A stretch of 51,968 nt of DNA from the NCBI GenBank assembly GCA_026015185.1, contig JAOZGX010000007.1, positions 1 through 51,968 of the forward strand. The letters are read 5' to 3'. The DNA comes from Candidatus Bathyarchaeota archaeon. GTDB taxonomy: Archaea > Thermoproteota > Bathyarchaeia > 40CM-2-53-6 > RBG-13-38-9. Below the pieces are notes generated by a model. It saw only the letters and a list, made by a program, of their open reading frames with translations, was not told the origin of the DNA and searched no databases. The first letter of the stretch is position 1. Every line of letters begins with the position of its first letter. Of this stretch, positions 30,546 through 40,124 are shown piece by piece. The translations under genes were made by a program, and so were the position numbers.

Positions 30546-30560
30546 TTGCGCGCATGCGAA
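30546..30560. repeat. GC element TTGCGCGCATGCGAA
   Basis: In the spacer between the YkgJ-like gene and the RtcB-like gene, 44 bases from the next GC element. Confidence 0.6.
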
Positions 30561-30603: not shown

Positions 30604-30617
30604 ATAGCGCGCGCTGT
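30604..30617. repeat. GC element ATAGCGCGCGCTGT at the YkgJ stop
   Basis: Directly abuts the stop codon of the YkgJ-like gene (30618-30620) on its downstream side. Confidence 0.65.
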
Positions 30618-31321: not shown

Positions 31322-31468
31322 CTAAGCTTTCTTTCTCACAAGAATCTTGCTATTAACCGTCTGCACCATTTCCCATCCATTATTCAGATAATCTTCCAAA
31401 TCTTTCTCAGTAACAAGTTTATTCTGAAACTTAGTTCGATTATAGCGCGCGCTAAAATTGGATTTCAT
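31322..31468 (-). CDS. Small 48-residue protein downstream of TFB
   Basis: From ATG 31468 to TAG 31322, starting 22 bases after the TFB stop in the same direction. The N-terminal codons read through a GC element (coding SARY). The rest (NKLVTEKDLEDYLNNGWEMV, ending SKILVRKKA) is a recognisable short alpha/beta unit, seen as a tail in archaeal integrases and as free-standing small proteins. It could be the C-terminal remnant of an integrase or a genuine small protein; an island of this kind should once have carried an integrase. Confidence 0.45.
   Translation of the reverse strand: MKSNFSARYNRTKFQNKLVTEKDLEDYLNNGWEMVQTVNSKILVRKKA
31441..31454. repeat. GC element TATAGCGCGCGCTA
   Basis: Lies 37 bases past the TFB stop and inside the first codons of the small ORF at 31322-31468. 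Confidence 0.6.
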
Positions 31469-31490: not shown

Positions 31491-32420
31491 TCATATATTC
31501 AGTTTGAGAGTTTCTTTCAAACCCCTATATCTATTCCTCACGGTCACTTCTGTTACATTCGCTACTTCAGCGATTTCTTTCTGTGTTTTCTTTACGTTAT
31601 CGAGCACACAAGCAACGTACAGCGCCGCAGCAGCCAATCCCATAGGATTTTTACCAGATACCACTCCCTTTTGTTTTGCTTCTCCAAGTATTTCTATGGC
31701 TATTCTTTCCGTTTTAATAGGTATCTTCACTTTTGACCCTATCTTAGATATGCATCTTACGGGGTCTTCAACGGGCATTCTGATATCTTGCTCTTTAAGC
31801 AAAAGCCTGTAACAGCGTGCAACATCCTTTTTTTTCCTCACGCTACTAGCAGAAGCTACTTCCTTCAAAGTCCTCGGAGTTTCAGTAGCTCTACACGCTG
31901 CGTAAAGAGCGGCGGAAGCTATGGCTGCAATTGATCTACCGCGCACGAATCCGTTGTCTAATGCCTTTCTATAGATGATCGCGGCCTTTTCTTTCACTTG
32001 TAATGGAAGATGAAGGTTGTCTTTTAGCCTGTCTAACTCCCCCATGGCTTGAATTAAGTTTTTATCGATGGATGAATGGACTCCAGTTCTGATTTGCAAT
32101 TTTCTTAACCTCAGCATTTCTAGCCTTGTAGAAATTGGCAATTGCTTTCCGTGAGCATCTCGGTTTATTCGGTCTATGGTCGTAGAAAGCCCCTTATCGT
32201 GCATAGAATAAGAAATCGGCATGCCTACTCTTCCTCGACTTTCTTTCTCTTCTTTGGTAAAAGCCCTCCATTCGGCCCCTCTATCTAAGACATTCTCATT
32301 GATCACGAGTCCGCAATTTTGGCAGATAATCTCCCCACGGTCGTAATCTTCAATAGGGTTGTCACTACCACATTCAGGACACTTTACGATTTTCCATAAT
32401 TTTCTTGCATACGAAGTCAA
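31491..32420 (-). CDS. tfb: Transcription initiation factor TFB
   Basis: 309 residues. An N-terminal zinc ribbon (CPECGSDNPIEDYDRGEIICQNCG) is followed by the B-finger/linker (DRGAEWRAFTKEEKESRGRVG) and two cyclin-like repeats (about 115-205 and 210-300). The second ends in a helix-turn-helix (KTQKEIAEVANVTEVTVRNRYRGL) that contacts BRE. It recruits RNA polymerase to TBP-bound promoters. The start appears to be TTG at 32420; no ATG is available in frame near the zinc ribbon. Its place inside a decaying island raises the question of whether it is the main TFB or an extra copy. Confidence 0.95.
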   Translation of the reverse strand: MTSYARKLWKIVKCPECGSDNPIEDYDRGEIICQNCGLVINENVLDRGAEWRAFTKEEKESRGRVGMPISYSMHDKGLSTTIDRINRDAHGKQLPISTRLEMLRLRKLQIRTGVHSSIDKNLIQAMGELDRLKDNLHLPLQVKEKAAIIYRKALDNGFVRGRSIAAIASAALYAACRATETPRTLKEVASASSVRKKKDVARCYRLLLKEQDIRMPVEDPVRCISKIGSKVKIPIKTERIAIEILGEAKQKGVVSGKNPMGLAAAALYVACVLDNVKKTQKEIAEVANVTEVTVRNRYRGLKETLKLNI

Positions 32421-32603
32421 GATTTACATTACACCCTAATTAGATGGTGGCATAGGCAAGGCAAAATCAGAATAAAAAGGGGAAAACTCCCCCTGCAAAT
32501 AACGAGATTTTCTTCTCAATAATACATACAAAAAGGGCCTAAGAAATTAGGCGCTCCAGACACTTAAGTATCTTTCTACACATACGACAATTTTCGTACA
32601 TTA

Positions 32604-32618
32604 TTGCGATCGCGCTAA
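32604..32618. repeat. GC element TTGCGATCGCGCTAA
   Basis: In the TFB-MFS spacer; the alternation is broken by an AT pair at the centre. Confidence 0.45.
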
Positions 32619-32646: not shown

Positions 32647-32659
32647 CAGCGCGCGCACT
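32647..32659. repeat. GC element CAGCGCGCGCACT
   Basis: Lies 29 bases after the previous element. Confidence 0.55.
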
Positions 32660-32722
32660 CGTAAATATATGAAATAGAGTAGATACTAGGCTTTATCAAA
32701 TCAATGGTTTTGAACCCAAAAG

Positions 32723-32740
32723 GTGGCGGGCCCGCAGGGA
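32723..32740 (-). repeat. tRNA-Arg 3'-end fragment, inner copy (possible att site)
   Basis: gtggcgggcccgcaggga is identical to 40283-40300, the encoded CCA, discriminator, acceptor strand and start of the T-stem of tRNA-Arg. It is in the same orientation as the tRNA and as the outer fragment at 28977. Beyond 32740 the match stops. Confidence 0.65.
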
Positions 32741-32812
32741 CTCGGAGCATTATTGAGGCTAAAATTGGGCTCAAAATTATTACACTCTAATATAAATTCG
32801 AATCTCCCCCGG

Positions 32813-32825
32813 GCGCGCGCGCTAA
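32813..32825. repeat. GC element GCGCGCGCGCTAA
   Basis: Joined directly to the second tRNA-like fragment (ending CCCGGGC) and about 100 bases upstream of the MFS frame. Confidence 0.6.
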
Positions 32826-34671: not shown

Positions 34672-34908
34672 CTATTTTTCAAAATCCTCTCTGCTTTGTT
34701 TTAAAATTAATTTTAACCATTCTTTTAATTCTCTTTTTGGGTTAAGATAAATTAGCATTATGAGTGAAATTTCATTAATAACAATACCATTATAATTTTC
34801 TAATAAAGAAACCATTTTATGGATTGTTTTTTCACTGCCATATTCAGTTGGACAATGACACTGAGACAAAATCGGTGAAAAAGAAGAATAATGTATATGG
34901 TATGTATA
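34672..34908 (-). CDS. Possible truncated ORF running out of a GC element, unknown
   Basis: About 78 residues remain open up to the GC element at 34909-34921, where the frame's only start (TTG 34923) lies. It carries CHCPTEYG, then a helical stretch (KMVSLLENYNGIVINEISL) and a basic end (KEWLKLILKQSREDFEK). It reads like the C-terminal part of a regulatory or HTH-type protein whose 5' end was lost at the GC element. An internal ATG at about 34815 could start a 47-residue product. Confidence 0.3.
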   Translation of the reverse strand, partial: YTYHIHYSSFSPILSQCHCPTEYGSEKTIHKMVSLLENYNGIVINEISLIMLIYLNPKRELKEWLKLILKQSREDFEK

Positions 34909-34921
34909 CCGCGCGCGCGCC
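34909..34921. repeat. GC element CCGCGCGCGCGCC between two gene fragments
   Basis: On its right begins the DUF2179 fragment with no start codon; on its left ends a divergent truncated frame. Confidence 0.65.
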
Positions 34922-35125
34922 AAGGGGGAAGTACATGCTATCTATTCTGTTATAAAACGACAGGATCTTGATGAAATTGTTGCAGACATTAAAAGGTTCA
35001 ATCCGCATGCATTCTACACAATAGAAGATCTCAGGTTTGTATCCGAAGAAATATCTACTGTAAGCAGATCATGGCCTGAAAAAATCTATCATAATTCACA
35101 TAGATTCATTAGTAAAGGAAAATAG
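34922..35125 (+). pseudogene. C-terminal fragment of a DUF2179/YitT-like membrane protein
   Basis: The frame from 34922 to the TAG at 35123-35125 reads GEVHAIYSVIKRQDLDEIV and NPHAFYTIEDLRFVSEE. This is the cytoplasmic DUF2179 domain found at the end of YitT and UPF0316/DUF5698 membrane proteins. The membrane part and any start codon are missing; the frame begins immediately after the GC element. I infer a deletion with its junction at or next to the GC element. Confidence 0.6.
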
Positions 35126-35204
35126 TATTTTGATTTATTAATTAAAAGCAATTAATCAATCAGATTATATAATAGTTGATTGTTCTAATCGTTCTGAATC
35201 GATT

Positions 35205-35220
35205 TAACGCGCATGCAATA
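35205..35220. repeat. GC element TAACGCGCATGCAATA
   Basis: 29 bases upstream of the opine dehydrogenase start, between the AT-rich promoter stretch and the ribosome site. Confidence 0.55.
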
Positions 35221-35248
35221 GTACAAATTCATTATAAAAGGGATTAGA

Positions 35249-36343
35249 ATGTCTTCAAAAAAGATCGCTATTTTAGGTGCGGGAAATGGAGGACAGACCG
35301 CTGCTGCTGATTTATCTCTTGCAGGATTTGAAGTCAATCTATATGAATCTCCTAAATTTGAGAAGAGTATTAGACCTATTATCGAAAGAGGAAGAATAAA
35401 GATAACCGGTGTGTCAAGGAAAGGTTATGCCACATTAAATAAAGCGACAACAAATATCAAAGAGGCAATGAAAGGCGTCGATGTGGTAATGATTATTGTT
35501 CCTGCTTATGCCCATGAAATTTTCTTTAAGGAATTTGTACCCTACCTTGAGGATGGATAGATTGTTACCATTCAAGCAGGGAATCATGGGGCGCTTCAAT
35601 TATCCAATATGCTAAAAAATATGAAAATAAACAAAGACGTTATTATATCTGAAACACCCACACTCATATACGTTTGTAGGGTGACAGCGCCAGCAGAAGT
35701 AAGGGCAAGTGGATTAAAAAGGGAAGTGCCCTTTGCTGCCATTCCAGCGAAGGATACTGAAAAAAGTATTAAAATATTAAATGAGTTCTACCCTCAGTTT
35801 GTTCCTGCAACAAACGTCTTAGAAACGTCCTTATCAAGCGCCAATATGATCCTCCATCCTCCTATAATGCTCTTAAATGCGGGGCATATTGAACGCTCCA
35901 AAGGTGATTTTCTATTTTATATCCATGGGGCATCCCCTTCAGTAGCACGAGTCTGTGAAATCATTGATGCTGAAAGACTTGCCGTTGGAAAAGCTTTGGG
36001 TATAAACTTGATATCGGTGAAAGATGCCATGTATAGAAAGTATGATGCGCATGGCAATAATCTCTATGAAAGAATTCAAGATTGTAAACCATATTGGGAT
36101 CATAGTTCAGCTTCTGCGCCGAGTAGTCTTGAAAGTCGATATTTAAATGAAGATGTTCCTTATGGACTAGTACCCTTAGCGTCTCTAGGTGATTTATTAA
36201 GAGTACCTACACCTACCGTTAAAACGATCATCGATTTCGCTTCATTGATCAATCAAACAGATTATTGGGAAGAAGGATTGACTGTAGAAAAACTTGGACT
36301 AAAAGGATTGACCGCAGAGCAGATAAAATCCTTAGTCAACTGA
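35249..36343 (+). pseudogene. NAD-dependent octopine/opine-type dehydrogenase, interrupted by TAG
   Basis: Two frames (35249-35560 and the part from 35561) are in the same phase and join across a single TAG at 35558-35560 into a 364-residue protein. The first part has the Rossmann start KIAILGAGNGGQTAAADLSLAG. The second has the octopine/nopaline dehydrogenase C-terminal domain (HPPIMLLNAGHIERS, YRKYDAHGNNLYERI, SRYLNEDVPYGLVPLASLG). The stop replaces the Gln usual in DGQIV at the end of strand 4, a CAG to TAG change. Everything else is intact, so it is either freshly broken or read through. The enzyme would reduce an imine of an amino acid and a 2-oxo acid. Confidence 0.8.
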
Positions 36344-36555
36344 TAATTGGTAACTTACTCCTAAACAACGTTTTATCGCATACCTTTCATTTGAGGTGGA
36401 CCAATCCATCGTACTGTTCTTTTTAATATACATACGCGAAAAATTAGAAAATTAAAAAAATGAAGTTAATTATTTTACTTGGTCTTAGTAATGTTGACAA
36501 TAGCTTTTATTGCCAAGATAATGGCAGTTTTAATACTTTCTGGAATGTGGGCACT

Positions 36556-36615
36556 ATTCAAGCGCGCGCGAGAGAGTTCCACATACAGGACAAAAGGTTG
36601 TTGGTTGATACATTT
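36556..36615 (-). pseudogene. Zinc-ribbon micro-ORF cut at a GC element
   Basis: From the ATG at 36615, with AAGGAG a few bases upstream, the frame reads MYQPTTFCPVCGTLSRALE and stops at TAG (36556-36558), the last codons being the GC element itself. Just past the stop the same frame gives CPHSRKY, which would supply the second metal pair of a zinc ribbon. This suggests an insertion of the GC element into a small zinc-ribbon gene. It may also be a functional 19-residue peptide. Confidence 0.35.
36561..36571. repeat. GC element AGCGCGCGCGA
   Basis: Between the two cysteine pairs of the micro zinc ribbon. Confidence 0.5.
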
Positions 36616-36699
36616 TTCAAAAACTCCTTGTAAGTGGACGTAACAAATACACGCTACCATGTTAAATATTTCGGAAGGCTTATTGTTAATAGAGGAAAA

Positions 36700-36804
36700 A
36701 TGTTGGCATGTGTTGATTGTTCCAAAGAAAATAAAATCGTTAGTGCTGAATATGTTGTAAATGGCGCTTCATTATGCCTTTTTCACGCTAATAAGCGCAC
36801 TTAA
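36700..36804 (+). CDS. Small zinc-finger-like protein, 34 residues
   Basis: ATG 36700 with GAGG upstream, TAA at 36802. It has CVDCSKE near the N-terminus, then SAEYVVNGASLCLFHANK, the pattern CxxC...C..H seen in many tiny archaeal zinc proteins whose middle reads A-x-YVVNG-x-SLC. A complete domain with a ribosome site makes this a probable real gene, although it is tiny. The role is unknown; protein or nucleic-acid contact is likely. Confidence 0.6.
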   Translation: MLACVDCSKENKIVSAEYVVNGASLCLFHANKRT

Positions 36805-36834
36805 GCAAGTAAAAAAAAGAAATTGATTCACGAG

Positions 36835-36850
36835 TCGCGCGCTACGCGTA
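36835..36850. repeat. GC element TCGCGCGCTACGCGTA at the GH130 stop
   Basis: Ends two bases beyond the stop of the GH130 gene (36853-36855). Confidence 0.6.
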
Positions 36851-36852
36851 CA

Positions 36853-37788
36853 TTAAGTGTTATTCCTAAGGCAGGCTTTCACTAAATCATCGGTATTGGC
36901 AGTGCACACACATAAATAAGTGTCAGCAGCTCCATAGTATATCTTAACTTCGCCTGTATTTTGTTCAAGTACGGCCCCACATGTAAAGACAACATTGGGA
37001 ACATCGCCCGTCCTCTCGTACGGCGTTCTAGGTGATAAGATTGGTACTTCTGATCGTCCGACCAGTGTTGATGGGTCTTCTAGATTAAACAACGCACATC
37101 CAAGTCGATATATCCTATTTTTTACGCCGTGGTATATCTCAAGCCATCCTTTATCGGTTTCTATTGGAGGTGTGCCACCACCAATCTTTTCCATGTCCCA
37201 ATGGCCCGGTCTCGCTTCCATCACCGCTCTAGCTTCGCCCCAATGCTTGAGATCTGAAGAGTAGGAGATCCATATACCGTCAGAGGCGGGCCTATCTAAG
37301 CGCACAAATTTGCCGTTAAATTGCCTCGAAAAGAGAGCGGCATCCTTATTATCGGGCTCTGAAATGAGCGCGATTCTCTCAAACGTTTGGAAATCATCTG
37401 TTGTTGCGAGGCCTATTAGGGGGCCGAAATGGGAGTATGCTGTATAGAGTATGTAGTAAGTATCTCCAATTTTGGTGATTCTAGGATCTTCGACTCCCCG
37501 CTTCTCGTAAGTCTTAAAAGGCTCCATGGGACTCTTGCTAAACACGGGTCCGTTCAGTATTTCAAAATCATAGCCATCTGTACTTTCTGCTAAATAGAAC
37601 TTTGATTTACCCTCGAGATCCTCAACTCTCAGCAATAAAATATATTTGTTTTTGTATAAAGTCGCTCCAGCATTAAAAACAGTATTGCAGGGATCCGGTA
37701 TGTCAACAGAAGTAATAATTGGATTGCCTTCATACCTTTCAACTAAATCACTTTTAGATTTACCGATATTCGCAAAATCGTGGCTCAT
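36853..37788 (-). CDS. Glycoside hydrolase family 130 (mannoside phosphorylase-like)
   Basis: 311 residues from the ATG at 37788; a TTG at 37806 is also in frame. It has the five-bladed propeller of GH130: RYEGNPIIT, FNAGATLY, RVEDLEGKSKFYLAESTDG, GVEDPRITKIGDTYYILYTAY, GGGTPPIETDKGWLEIYHGV and TGDVPNVVFTCGAVL. Family members phosphorolyse beta-mannosides (mannosyl-glucose, mannooligosaccharides), releasing mannose-1-phosphate. The catalytic Asp lies in GVEDPRI. The neighbouring GT4 gene on the same strand, 335 bases upstream, is a common companion. Its codon use looks GC-richer than the genome around it. Confidence 0.92.
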   Translation of the reverse strand: MSHDFANIGKSKSDLVERYEGNPIITSVDIPDPCNTVFNAGATLYKNKYILLLRVEDLEGKSKFYLAESTDGYDFEILNGPVFSKSPMEPFKTYEKRGVEDPRITKIGDTYYILYTAYSHFGPLIGLATTDDFQTFERIALISEPDNKDAALFSRQFNGKFVRLDRPASDGIWISYSSDLKHWGEARAVMEARPGHWDMEKIGGGTPPIETDKGWLEIYHGVKNRIYRLGCALFNLEDPSTLVGRSEVPILSPRTPYERTGDVPNVVFTCGAVLEQNTGEVKIYYGAADTYLCVCTANTDDLVKACLRNNT

Positions 37789-38000
37789 ACCTTCATCCCT
37801 ATCCAATTCATTAAAAGATCGATAAAAGCTAACTCCTTGATTTTATATGAATTCACCTATGGGGGTTTATTTCTTTGGATATTTAAAAGTGTCAGAAACT
37901 TTCCCTCAATCATCTCGCAGGAATGACGTTTCACAAACTTTCTTGCTCTCTATAAAACATTCCACAGCTTTAGATTCCCGTTAAATACAATTTCTATGTA

Positions 38001-38017
38001 TTAGCGCGCGTGCGATA
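38001..38017. repeat. GC element TTAGCGCGCGTGCGATA
   Basis: About 210 bases upstream of the GH130 gene. Confidence 0.6.
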
Positions 38018-38057
38018 GAGCTCATCCATTGTAAGGAGGCTTTTCTTTATAAAATTG

Positions 38058-38070
38058 TATAGCGCACGCT
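38058..38070. repeat. GC element TATAGCGCACGCT
   Basis: Downstream of the GT4 stop; a 40-base segment with the orphan ribosome site separates it from the previous element. Confidence 0.5.
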
Positions 38071-38123
38071 CCTGACGCAGTTTCCACATGCGGAAGCATT
38101 GTGGTGCCTTAGCTTGAGCGAGG

Positions 38124-39401
38124 TTAAGATCCACTATAGGCGGCTGATACATGCATAGGTATCGGCTTAGTTAAGCCAGACTCTTTATCGGATTGTAGCC
38201 TCGGTAAGCTTAGTTTGTAAAGTTTTAGATGATCTCCAGCTACTTTAGGCCAAGCCATCCTCTTAACTGTGTATGAATAACCATTAGCCTCTAGGGTTGA
38301 TTTTAGACTCTCATCTTCTGCTAAGATATGTATGGCCTCGGTTATGGACTCTGAATCTCTTGGAGGTACTAGTATGCCTCTCTCGCCTATGATTATCCTT
38401 CCAAATTTGGCTTTACCTCTGCTCGAGGTTTTAAAGCCGCCCAGGAGTTCCACAGCATGTTGAAAGGATGTGGATATAATCGCCTTGCCGCAGCTTAAGG
38501 CGTATGATAGGGTACCGCTTGATATCTGATCCCTGTACGGATACGGTATTACGTAGATGTCTGATGCGATTAGATATTTTACAAGTTCCTGCTCATCTAG
38601 GAATCTATTTATGAACCGTATGTTCTCCCCCATCTTTAAGGAGGCCGCAAGGTTTTCGAGGCTTTCACGATATCGTTCATCCTCTCTCTTTAGAATGTTT
38701 GGATGCGTTGCACCTATGATTAGAAGTAGTGTCTCAGGCAGTTCTTCAACTACCCTCTTCACAGATTGAATAACGTACTCAAGTCCTTTTCTGGTGCTCA
38801 TCAAACCGAAGTTGGATATGACTAGGCGATCCTTTAATCCGAATCTTTTTCTAAGATCCATCCTATCGAATCGGCTTAGATTCACGCAGGGAACGCCATG
38901 AGGTATTACCTGTACCTTCTTCTCCGCGATATCGTAGTGTGAGGTGAGTAAGTTTGCAGCGATGTCTGAGTGGACTATAATTCTATCCGCTCTCTCGGCT
39001 ATCCTCTCTACTATAGGTCTGATGCTAGTTGAGGCTTTTTTCATGGAGTGAAATGTAGCTACGAGGGGTTTCCTCAGCCTCTCCACAAAGGGGAGTATGG
39101 ATGAACCGTGGACACCTCCGAAGAGGCCGAACTCATGTTGGATATGGACTATATCGATATCAGAGCTGTTTACGAAATGAGCTGCAGAATTGTAACTAGA
39201 CCTGTAACCCTTCCGAAGTATCCGATATACTACTACCCCATTATAAGTATGTCTACTCGGATAAGTTCCCCCAAAATTGAAGGAAAGCACGGAGGGGTGA
39301 GTATCGGGATCTGCCCTTATCAATGATCTAGCTAGATTCCACGTGTATGAGGCCAATCCACACCTCTGTGGGGGGAAACTACTAACGTAAAGTATATCCA
39401 A
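38124..39401 (-). CDS. GT4-type glycosyltransferase
   Basis: 425 residues with a GT-B fold: the N-terminal domain has VSSFPPQRCGLASYTWNLA and DIVHIQHEFGLFGG; the donor domain has ISNFGLMSTRKGLEYVI, DIYVIPYPYRDQISSGTLSYAL and a conserved GRGILVPPRD-like loop. It resembles the mannosyltransferases found beside GH130 enzymes, so the pair may build and turn over a mannose-containing glycan or storage sugar. The C-terminal 20 residues are unstructured. Codon use looks GC-richer than in the neighbouring housekeeping genes. A GC element lies 17 bases before the ATG. Confidence 0.9.
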   Translation of the reverse strand: MDILYVSSFPPQRCGLASYTWNLARSLIRADPDTHPSVLSFNFGGTYPSRHTYNGVVVYRILRKGYRSSYNSAAHFVNSSDIDIVHIQHEFGLFGGVHGSSILPFVERLRKPLVATFHSMKKASTSIRPIVERIAERADRIIVHSDIAANLLTSHYDIAEKKVQVIPHGVPCVNLSRFDRMDLRKRFGLKDRLVISNFGLMSTRKGLEYVIQSVKRVVEELPETLLLIIGATHPNILKREDERYRESLENLAASLKMGENIRFINRFLDEQELVKYLIASDIYVIPYPYRDQISSGTLSYALSCGKAIISTSFQHAVELLGGFKTSSRGKAKFGRIIIGERGILVPPRDSESITEAIHILAEDESLKSTLEANGYSYTVKRMAWPKVAGDHLKLYKLSLPRLQSDKESGLTKPIPMHVSAAYSGS

Positions 39402-39417
39402 GATAATCTTTCCAGGG

Positions 39418-39440
39418 TTAGCGCGCGCATGCGCGCTTTT
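39418..39440. repeat. Longest GC element, two GCGCGC cores around CAT
   Basis: Two GCGCGC cores separated by CAT, flanked by TTA and TTTT; the centre GCGCGCATGCGCGC is a 14-base perfect palindrome. It lies 17 bases upstream of the GT4 start. Confidence 0.65.
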
Positions 39441-39582
39441 GAATTAGACAGTTGACTCTAAATATGTGAGGACTATTAGAGAGTGTAATAAGATAGTAAA
39501 TATCAAACTCAAATATTTATCTTTTACAATAAAATGGGCTATGTCAGGACAGTCTAGTGTACCTAGACCAAGTGAACCATAG

Positions 39583-39594
39583 GATCGCGCGCGG
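39583..39594. repeat. GC element GATCGCGCGCGG
   Basis: Begins directly after the TAG of the short MSGQSSVPRPSEP frame. Confidence 0.5.
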
Positions 39595-39610
39595 AATTTA
39601 CCTCTCGTAC

Positions 39611-39690
39611 CTACTTTACAATTATGTCAACAAACTCCTTGATCGCGCTATCTGGATTCTTAAGCTTGAAAAGGTGTATCCAATTAGCAA
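39611..39690 (-). pseudogene. C-terminal gene fragment (about 26 codons)
   Basis: The frame from the GC element at 39690 to the TAG at 39611-39613 reads LANWIHLFKLKNPDSAIKE and FVDIIVK. It looks like a genuine protein C-terminus, amphipathic with an ordered helix, but has no start. It begins exactly at the GC element, like the DUF2179 fragment. Confidence 0.35.
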
Positions 39691-39701
39691 GCGCGCGCGA
39701 A
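39689..39701. repeat. GC element AAGCGCGCGCGAA
   Basis: Marks the broken 5' edge of the fragment at 39611-39690. Confidence 0.55.
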
Positions 39702-39945
39702 CTGATAAACTGCTTTAGAATTGAAATAATATTTTGTACCAAACGCTTCGAATGACATTTTTGCTAATTAAATAAAATTAGAAAATATCCCAGCGCACAA
39801 GACTTGAAATAACATAATCATAATTGTTTTCACTAAACAATATCCTAAAATTTGTTAATAAGTATGATTGCTTCATTTCTTTTTAAGCATAAAATTATGT
39901 TTAATTTATTTAATTTCTCCAGACTTCATAAATTCTTGAGCAAAG

Positions 39946-40005
39946 ATGGTTGGTAAGAAAAAAGCAAAAAGTAAAAAAGTCAAGTCTAAGACAAAGAAAA
40001 AGTAG
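39946..40005 (+). CDS. Lysine-rich 19-residue micro-ORF
   Basis: Reads MVGKKKAKSKKVKSKTKKK and ends at TAG 40003. Twelve of 19 residues are lysine, with no acidic residue. It has no hydrophobic core and resembles a histone tail or a DNA-compacting peptide. A T-rich tract follows 40 bases later, fit for a terminator. There is no clear ribosome site; AT-rich promoter-like sequence lies upstream. It may be a chance frame. Confidence 0.35.
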   Translation: MVGKKKAKSKKVKSKTKKK

Positions 40006-40124
40006 CTGAAGTGCTACCGAAACTTCCTATTAAAAGCTGGCGCAAAATATCTTTTTGCATTTTATTCTATTGATATCATTTTTACGCGCCAGAATTTTTT
40101 CCAATTTCAATTTTAAAATTATGA

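Follow-up and report, generated by a model that had tools for sequence, protein, structure and literature searches.

Mutagenic end joining, whether by Ku/LigD nonhomologous end joining with N-additions or by polymerase-theta-type microhomology joining, leaves nonhomologous seams with small losses, short filler and captured stray fragments. In Haloquadratum walsbyi, deletion-coupled insertions replace resident with foreign DNA at nonhomologous positions and sometimes exchange homologous genes in kept order, by a mechanism that is unknown (PMC3119063). The GC clusters of yeast and fungal mitochondria are short GC-rich palindromes in AT-rich intergenic DNA that are linked to rearrangement (PMC4478555, PMC7218506), and REP/RAYT palindromes are extragenic palindromes of prokaryotes, including archaea (PMC3733652, PMC12306157). 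Here, we describe the GC element, an alternating run of G and C of at least 6 nt, in the 51,968-bp window that was analyzed, which is the entire contig C7 of the archaeal genome G000. The element usually takes the form A(GC)3-5T, with a core of 6 to 14 nt. As judged by sequence comparison, gene breaks, duplication seams and both seams of a foreign replacement coincide with this stereotyped insert.

The seams resemble those of mutagenic end joining, but the filler is stereotyped, and neither Ku nor the LigD polymerase domain nor PolX, where present at all, tracks the trait. For Haloquadratum, no sequence conservation of a targeting type was reported (PMC3119063), whereas a GC element lies at the seam here. 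The mitochondrial GC clusters belong to conserved families of greater length (42 nt, for example) and have an AG target site, in contrast to the bare alternating core found here, which has no target duplication. REP/RAYT palindromes are 20 to 40 bp long and carry GTAG or CGTC tags, while the present elements have no conserved tag. No description of an archaeal precedent for GC elements at seams was found in the open-access literature.

G000 is a Bathyarchaeota-like metagenome-assembled genome (MAG) of 1.81 Mb in 118 contigs, 96.6% complete and with a GC content of about 36%. The window is archaeal because it encodes TFIIB, topoisomerase VI-B and a class-I LysRS. The nearest named relative reached was Candidatus Bathyarchaeota DVMM_2 (77% LysRS identity).

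Gene breaks and seams at GC elements

A preliminary description of the window had placed GC elements exactly at the broken ends of five gene fragments. For the DUF2179 piece, this was borne out by homology, which begins near codon AAG 34922, 1 nt beyond the element at 34910-34920. The remnant matches positions 16-52 of the 55 in Pfam PF10035 and aligns at 53% identity with residues 139-204 (the last 66) of an intact 204-amino-acid paralogue on C62, with 138 N-terminal residues missing. The other four were over-read from frames that lack homology. The frame at 34672-34908 had no homologue in Pfam, NCBIfam or 60 relatives, and no homologue was found for the 25-codon frame at 39611-39688. The "zinc-ribbon" frame at 36561 reads, by eye, ECGHYSS/RVPHTGQK. 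These frames, including one of 13 codons, are compatible with remnants and are no evidence for breaks.

A census of breaks across genomes covered 727 kb of G000, 376 kb of G002 and 32 kb of G004 (about 40%, 25% and 2% of these genomes, respectively), in which genes of at least 110 amino acids had been masked. The unmasked remainder was compared by blastx with 1,563 open reading frames from seven genomes, and the alignments were trimmed at their ends. Ends that were natural or at which the alignment continued were excluded, and for every remaining truncated end we determined how far away the nearest element lay. Ten of 50 truncated homology ends lay within 6 nt of an element, compared with 1.1 to 1.3 expected by local relocation (P < 1e-5), which upholds the earlier remark that chance would not place breaks so precisely. 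The next distances were 23, 65 and 93 nt. With G004 left out, the count was 8 of 46 versus 1.0 expected. Control motifs (AT runs, poly-A/T and CA/TG runs) showed no excess at truncated ends in the same census. Profile matches that start at an element were obtained for FdhD (184-235 of 237), the zinc-binding dehydrogenase domain ADH_zinc_N_2 (107-134 of 134) and the phospholipid methyltransferase PEMT (39-104 of 105). Profile agreement was weaker for element-starting fragments of SufS and SHMT.

The check proposed in the preliminary description was a comparison with a related genome. In G002, the octopine dehydrogenase gene is cut exactly at GCGCGCGC, and the window gene is element-free at that place. 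On C65 of G002, an SDR-like gene start of about 25 codons (by eye, with no profile match) runs up to GCGCGCGC, and the final ~120 codons of octopine dehydrogenase follow immediately; the N-terminal part of octopine dehydrogenase has been lost and the remainder joined to the start of another gene. The conserved KSKK mini-gene (39872-40101 in the window) lies 133 bp after octopine dehydrogenase in G002, compared with 3.5 kb in the window, and the stretch from octopine dehydrogenase to the mini-gene (36.3-39.9 kb of the window) is missing at that place in G002. The earlier suggestion that the elements are scars of deletion or repair agrees with this comparison and must be widened to the seams of inserted and duplicated DNA.

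Three duplications bear on such seams. C9 of G000 carries a partial, 225-bp copy of a helicase gene that lies 1.8 kb away. The copy matches the 3' part of that gene at 94% identity and is cut off precisely at CGCGCGCGCGC, where the intact helicase gene has CAGACGTCTTTC and no element. On C5, a 454-bp block that is 95% identical to a block on C55 is bounded by GCGCGCGC and the degenerate ACGTGCGCTA. The C55 copy carries no element at the first end and one 20 bp beyond the second. The TFIIB region of the window (31746-32609) is duplicated on C45 at 92% identity, and both copies end at a short GC element (window 32609, C45:864), with GATCGCGCTAAC in the window versus GACTAGCGCGCG in the other copy; the C45 element is CTAGCGCGCG.

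Foreign DNA was found between elements on C1 of G004 (L066 5321-6820), where the order is archaeal leuD, leuB codons 1-28, GCGCGCGC, a complete bacterial-type leuB, CACGCGCGTG, a leuB C-terminus and leuA. The bacterial-type LeuB scores 507 bits against NF002898 (cut-off, 393), and its gene has its own ribosome-binding-like AAGGAG. The C-terminal piece runs from about codon 245 (Iso_dh 263-347 of 348). In G003, an intact archaeal leuB (LEU3_arch) lies between leuD and leuA. The arrangement in G004 clearly reads as a xenologous displacement, in which a foreign gene with the function of leuB took the place of the middle of the native archaeal leuB, and each of the two seams bears a GC element.

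Nonhomologous seams with a short insertion, as in mutagenic end joining, are thus found in G002 C65, in C9 and C5, and at leuB. Unrelated sequences between conserved flanks, as in deletion-coupled insertion, are found between leuD and leuA (G004 versus G003) and between octopine dehydrogenase and the KSKK mini-gene (window versus G002). The preliminary description was right in kind, and it points to a more general, apparently undescribed seam signature.

Form, placement and carriers of the elements

The hexamer GCGCGC occurs 28 times in the window, compared with 1.7 expected from dinucleotide shuffles, and 14 of the 18 window runs of at least 6 nt fall within 30.5-39.7 kb. Over 438 kb of G000, element density was 0.88 per kb in intergenic versus 0.037 per kb in coding DNA, a difference of about 24-fold. 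The most over-represented intergenic 8-mer of G000 was GCGCGCGC, with 76 copies versus 0.16 expected. Elements were more common near stop codons than near starts, with a bias to within 30 nt of stops. Per intergenic base, their density was alike across region sizes above 50 bp; with this and the few elements near starts, a role as terminators or promoters was rejected. Some genes end a few codons from an element that supplies the last residues (ARARS, SARA or ARAR before the stop; L036 5734, L041 3595, L157 10044 and L160 529), and these 3' ends look as if they had been replaced.

Among 141 intergenic elements from four genomes, two thirds have a core with G as its first and C as its last base. 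Even core lengths of 8 and 10 were in excess, with no geometric decay, and no palindromic coupling was detected between the two flanks, each side being independent. Next to G...C cores, the adjoining base was A (T on the other side) at 73% of sides. Beyond this A/T and a weak T/A, the elements had no conserved tag and no longer family sequence, and the core length was variable. Direct repeats of 2 to 6 nt flanking 106 elements were at chance level. The absence of target-site duplication and of a Y1 transposase in G000 disfavors the earlier proposal of element excision. Elements showed no overall clustering in pairs of the kind expected of paired insertion bounds. Coding-like open frames beside elements were in no excess over random noncoding points; thus, elements are usually not beside fresh gene breaks. 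An element can also lie in an intact gene: in an ECF-transporter-like gene of 228 codons on C70 of G000 (L157 13008-13020), an in-frame (CG)6C adds three residues, RAR, which are missing from two homologues (G002 and G013), and nothing of the gene is lost.

The phyletic trait was defined as the count of AGCGCGCGCT versus a reversed control, written count:control. In the family that includes the window genome, values were 28:0 (G000), 42:1, 97:1, 40:0, 26:0 and 14:0, yet 0:0 in G003 and G007. Other counts were 82:2 in G013, 50:1, 53:7 and 20:1 in family f11, and 65:0, 94:0 and 42:2 in family f13; elsewhere among 257 genomes of the class, mostly 0 to 3 copies were found. A survey of 181 genomes of the phylum, mostly from other classes, added one more genus, g114, with 88:2, 32:1 and 18:3 beside 3:1 and 0:0. 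The element-rich genomes are G000, G002, G004, G006, G013, G138, G227, G228 and G271, and the element-poor ones are G003, G007, G012, G017 and G285; the elements are also missing from the sister genus g4. The one-contig genome G228 carries 94 copies versus none of the reversed control. In G271, which belongs to another class of the phylum, six AGCGCGCGCT copies lie within 6 kb (C1, 24745-30762), an island like that of the window.

Origin of the elements

We consider it somewhat probable that the GC elements are scars at DNA joints, left by a mutagenic end-joining or DNA-capture process with a putative enzyme. We infer a mechanism in which the 3' ends of a chromosome break to be joined, or of an incoming or copied fragment, would acquire short tails that are self-complementary (often an A followed by GCGC...); alternatively, the 3' ends may be extended repeatedly on GC microhomology. 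The GC stretch would allow any two such ends to anneal, and gap filling and ligation would then yield a single palindromic (GC)n block. A loss of the sequence between two breaks would produce a deletion scar; a fragment caught between ends would become an insertion with one scar per side; and where little was lost, the GC insert alone would remain. The form A(GC)nT, with even, variable lengths and independent flanks, would be expected of two self-complementary tails that pair at variable overlap. The bias toward intergenic DNA and gene ends is what neutral scars would show, with selection removing them elsewhere, and most elements would then be old seams without recognizable fragments. The 30.5-40.1 kb part of the window is probably a patchwork of several joining events. 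If the element is born with the joint, each case needs one event, namely a deletion, a capture of own or foreign DNA or a small insertion.

Several points weigh against an origin of the elements as joint scars. The seams are known from sequence alone, and no joining event was observed. Most elements have no recognizable gene fragment alongside, and homologues at 50 to 75% protein identity fix some breaks only to a codon or two. To our knowledge, no described polymerase explains an alternating-GC rather than a random filler. No enzyme among Ku, PolX and the LigD polymerase domain was found to track the trait. Ku (PF02735) was not found in G000, G001-G009 or G013 and among 61 genomes occurred only in family f3 (G010, G015 and others), in which GC elements are at background. 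The LigD polymerase domain (PF21686) was absent from G000, G002, G004, G013 and G228 and occurred in 3 of 28 genomes, with and without elements, while PolX (PF14791) was found in none of 41 genomes, with positive controls.

REP/RAYT systems have a Y1 transposase. Y1 (PF01797) was not detected in G000, G002 or G006 and was present as single copies in G004 and G013. As their presence does not follow the elements, Ku, the LigD polymerase domain, PolX and the Y1 transposase were all rejected as the cause. Recombinases are common in archaea and would discriminate poorly.

The main rival, which we regard as rather unlikely, holds that the elements are GC-rich palindromes, perhaps mobile, that were present beforehand and serve as hot spots of recombination or breakage like the GC clusters of yeast mitochondrial DNA. 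The scatter of short GC-rich palindromes through AT-rich intergenic DNA and their patchy distribution among sister genomes agree with it, and preferential recombination between GC clusters has been recorded for yeast mitochondrial DNA (Dieckmann and Gandy 1987, as cited in PMC4478555). However, pre-existing elements would need prior placement inside each broken gene, whereas the break position is element-free in intact copies or orthologues of such genes; prior entry into two genes, and into leuB twice, would be required. The variable core length, the lack of a longer family sequence and of target duplication, and the lack of a Y1/REP-type transposase in G000 and G002 also speak against hot spots. 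A site-specific recombinase that shuffles integron-like cassettes at a loose AGCGC/GCGCT half-site is improbable. It would account for the palindromic shape of A(GC)nT, for the presence of an element on either side of inserted genes, as at leuB, and for the atypical composition of doubly flanked genes in G000 (GC content, 0.428 versus 0.360; n = 5). However, unit boundaries fall within genes whose intact copy has no site, the supposed half-site spacing varies, and the elements are not paired in clusters. Element-adjacent genes in G000 also have a lower codon likelihood (P = 0.016); in G002, the compositional atypicality of element-flanked genes was not significant.

Ordinary intergenic signals (a terminator, an operator or a Z-DNA or nucleoid site), with an incidental coincidence with breaks, are more improbable still. 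The strong intergenic enrichment and the bias toward stop codons fit such signals, but the reading is already strained by the census, in which the coincidence was far above chance and the motif controls were negative. Moreover, the density is alike in every size class, the elements are missing from g4, G003 and G007, and one lies in frame inside the C70 coding gene. Least credible of all, and very improbable, is that the seams are assembly or library chimeras. All genomes are MAGs or assemblies, most of them fragmented, and on C45, the start of the TFIIB copy coincides with a contig end. However, a stretch of 8 to 12 bp is too short to join de Bruijn contigs, artifacts would not be expected to be 24-fold rarer in intact genes, and the copies of G228 on a single contig speak against an assembly artifact.

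Beyond the scars themselves, some archaea of the phylum may possess an undescribed Ku-independent joining pathway, an idea that we put forward only tentatively. Self-complementary GC tails would serve it as universal sticky ends, and it could capture own and foreign DNA and, with no need of homology, swap resident for bacterial genes; every seam would then be marked by an A(GC)nT scar that can be counted. Such a pathway would bear on how uncultured archaea acquire genes from bacteria in the absence of homology. If a fixed scar per seam were true, uptake events could be counted in any genome and dated by scar decay, and the pattern of element-rich and element-poor genomes would offer a handle for finding the responsible gene.

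Features of the window

Table 1. Elements, genes and open frames in the element-rich part of the window
Feature	Position	Strand	Remark
Two GC elements	30548-30553 and 30607-30614		Left edge of element-rich stretch
GC element, canonical AGCGCGCGCT	31445..31452		Beside dispersed repeat 31329-31423
TFIIB gene	31491..32420	-	
Short element TCGCGCT	32610..32616		Where TFIIB duplication homology stops
GC element GCGCGCGCAC	32649..32658		
GC element GCGCGCGCGC	32813..32822		
Open frame, coding status unproven	34672..34908	-	Meets element 34910..34920 from the left; no homologue
GC element CGCGCGCGCGC	34910..34920		5' break of DUF2179 remnant
DUF2179-domain remnant, C-terminal 67 codons	34922..35125	+	Without start codon; Pfam, paralogue on C62
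Degenerate alternating element ACGCGCATGCA	35207..35217		Downstream of DUF2179 remnant
Octopine-dehydrogenase-like gene	35249..36343	+	In-frame TAG at 35558
GC element GCGCGCGCG	36562..36570		
GC element CGCGCGC	36836..36842		10 bp from GH130 gene 3' end
GH130-like gene	36853..37806	-	Element on each side, 43% GC, atypical codon use
GC element GCGCGCGTGCG	38004..38014		Between GH130 and GT4 genes
GT4-family glycosyltransferase gene	38124..39401	-	Element on each side, 44% GC
GC element GCGCGCGCATGCGCGC	39421..39436		19 bp upstream of GT4 start codon
GC element CGCGCGCG	39586..39593		
Open frame, 25 codons, ANWIHLFKLKNPDSAIKEFVDIIVK then stop	39611..39688	-	Begins at element 39691; fragment status not provable
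GC element GCGCGCGCG	39691..39699		At open end of frame 39611..39688

Features of the element-rich stretch are collected in Table 1. The GT4 gene is the most atypical of the five doubly flanked genes of G000. In the octopine-dehydrogenase-like gene, the TAG (35558-35560) splits 103 and 244 codons of one frame that is otherwise intact, so that the gene may be a pseudogene or contain a read-through codon.

The dispersed intergenic repeat at 31329-31423 has copies of 84 to 88% identity on C9 (2445-2528) and C30 (1278-1344). Another family of repeats, about 90 bp long, was found on C30 (L052 2044-2433), with copies in L041, L054, L151 and L157; one copy begins exactly at a GC element (L041 5637-5645). 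Between two GC elements of the window, a 36- to 40-bp stretch, AACCCAAAAGGTGGCGGGCCCGCAGGGAC (32705-32744), resembles the 3' end of a tRNA gene. It has a 97% identical copy in G002 C138 and another in G004 C324, and it looks like the remnant of an integration site.

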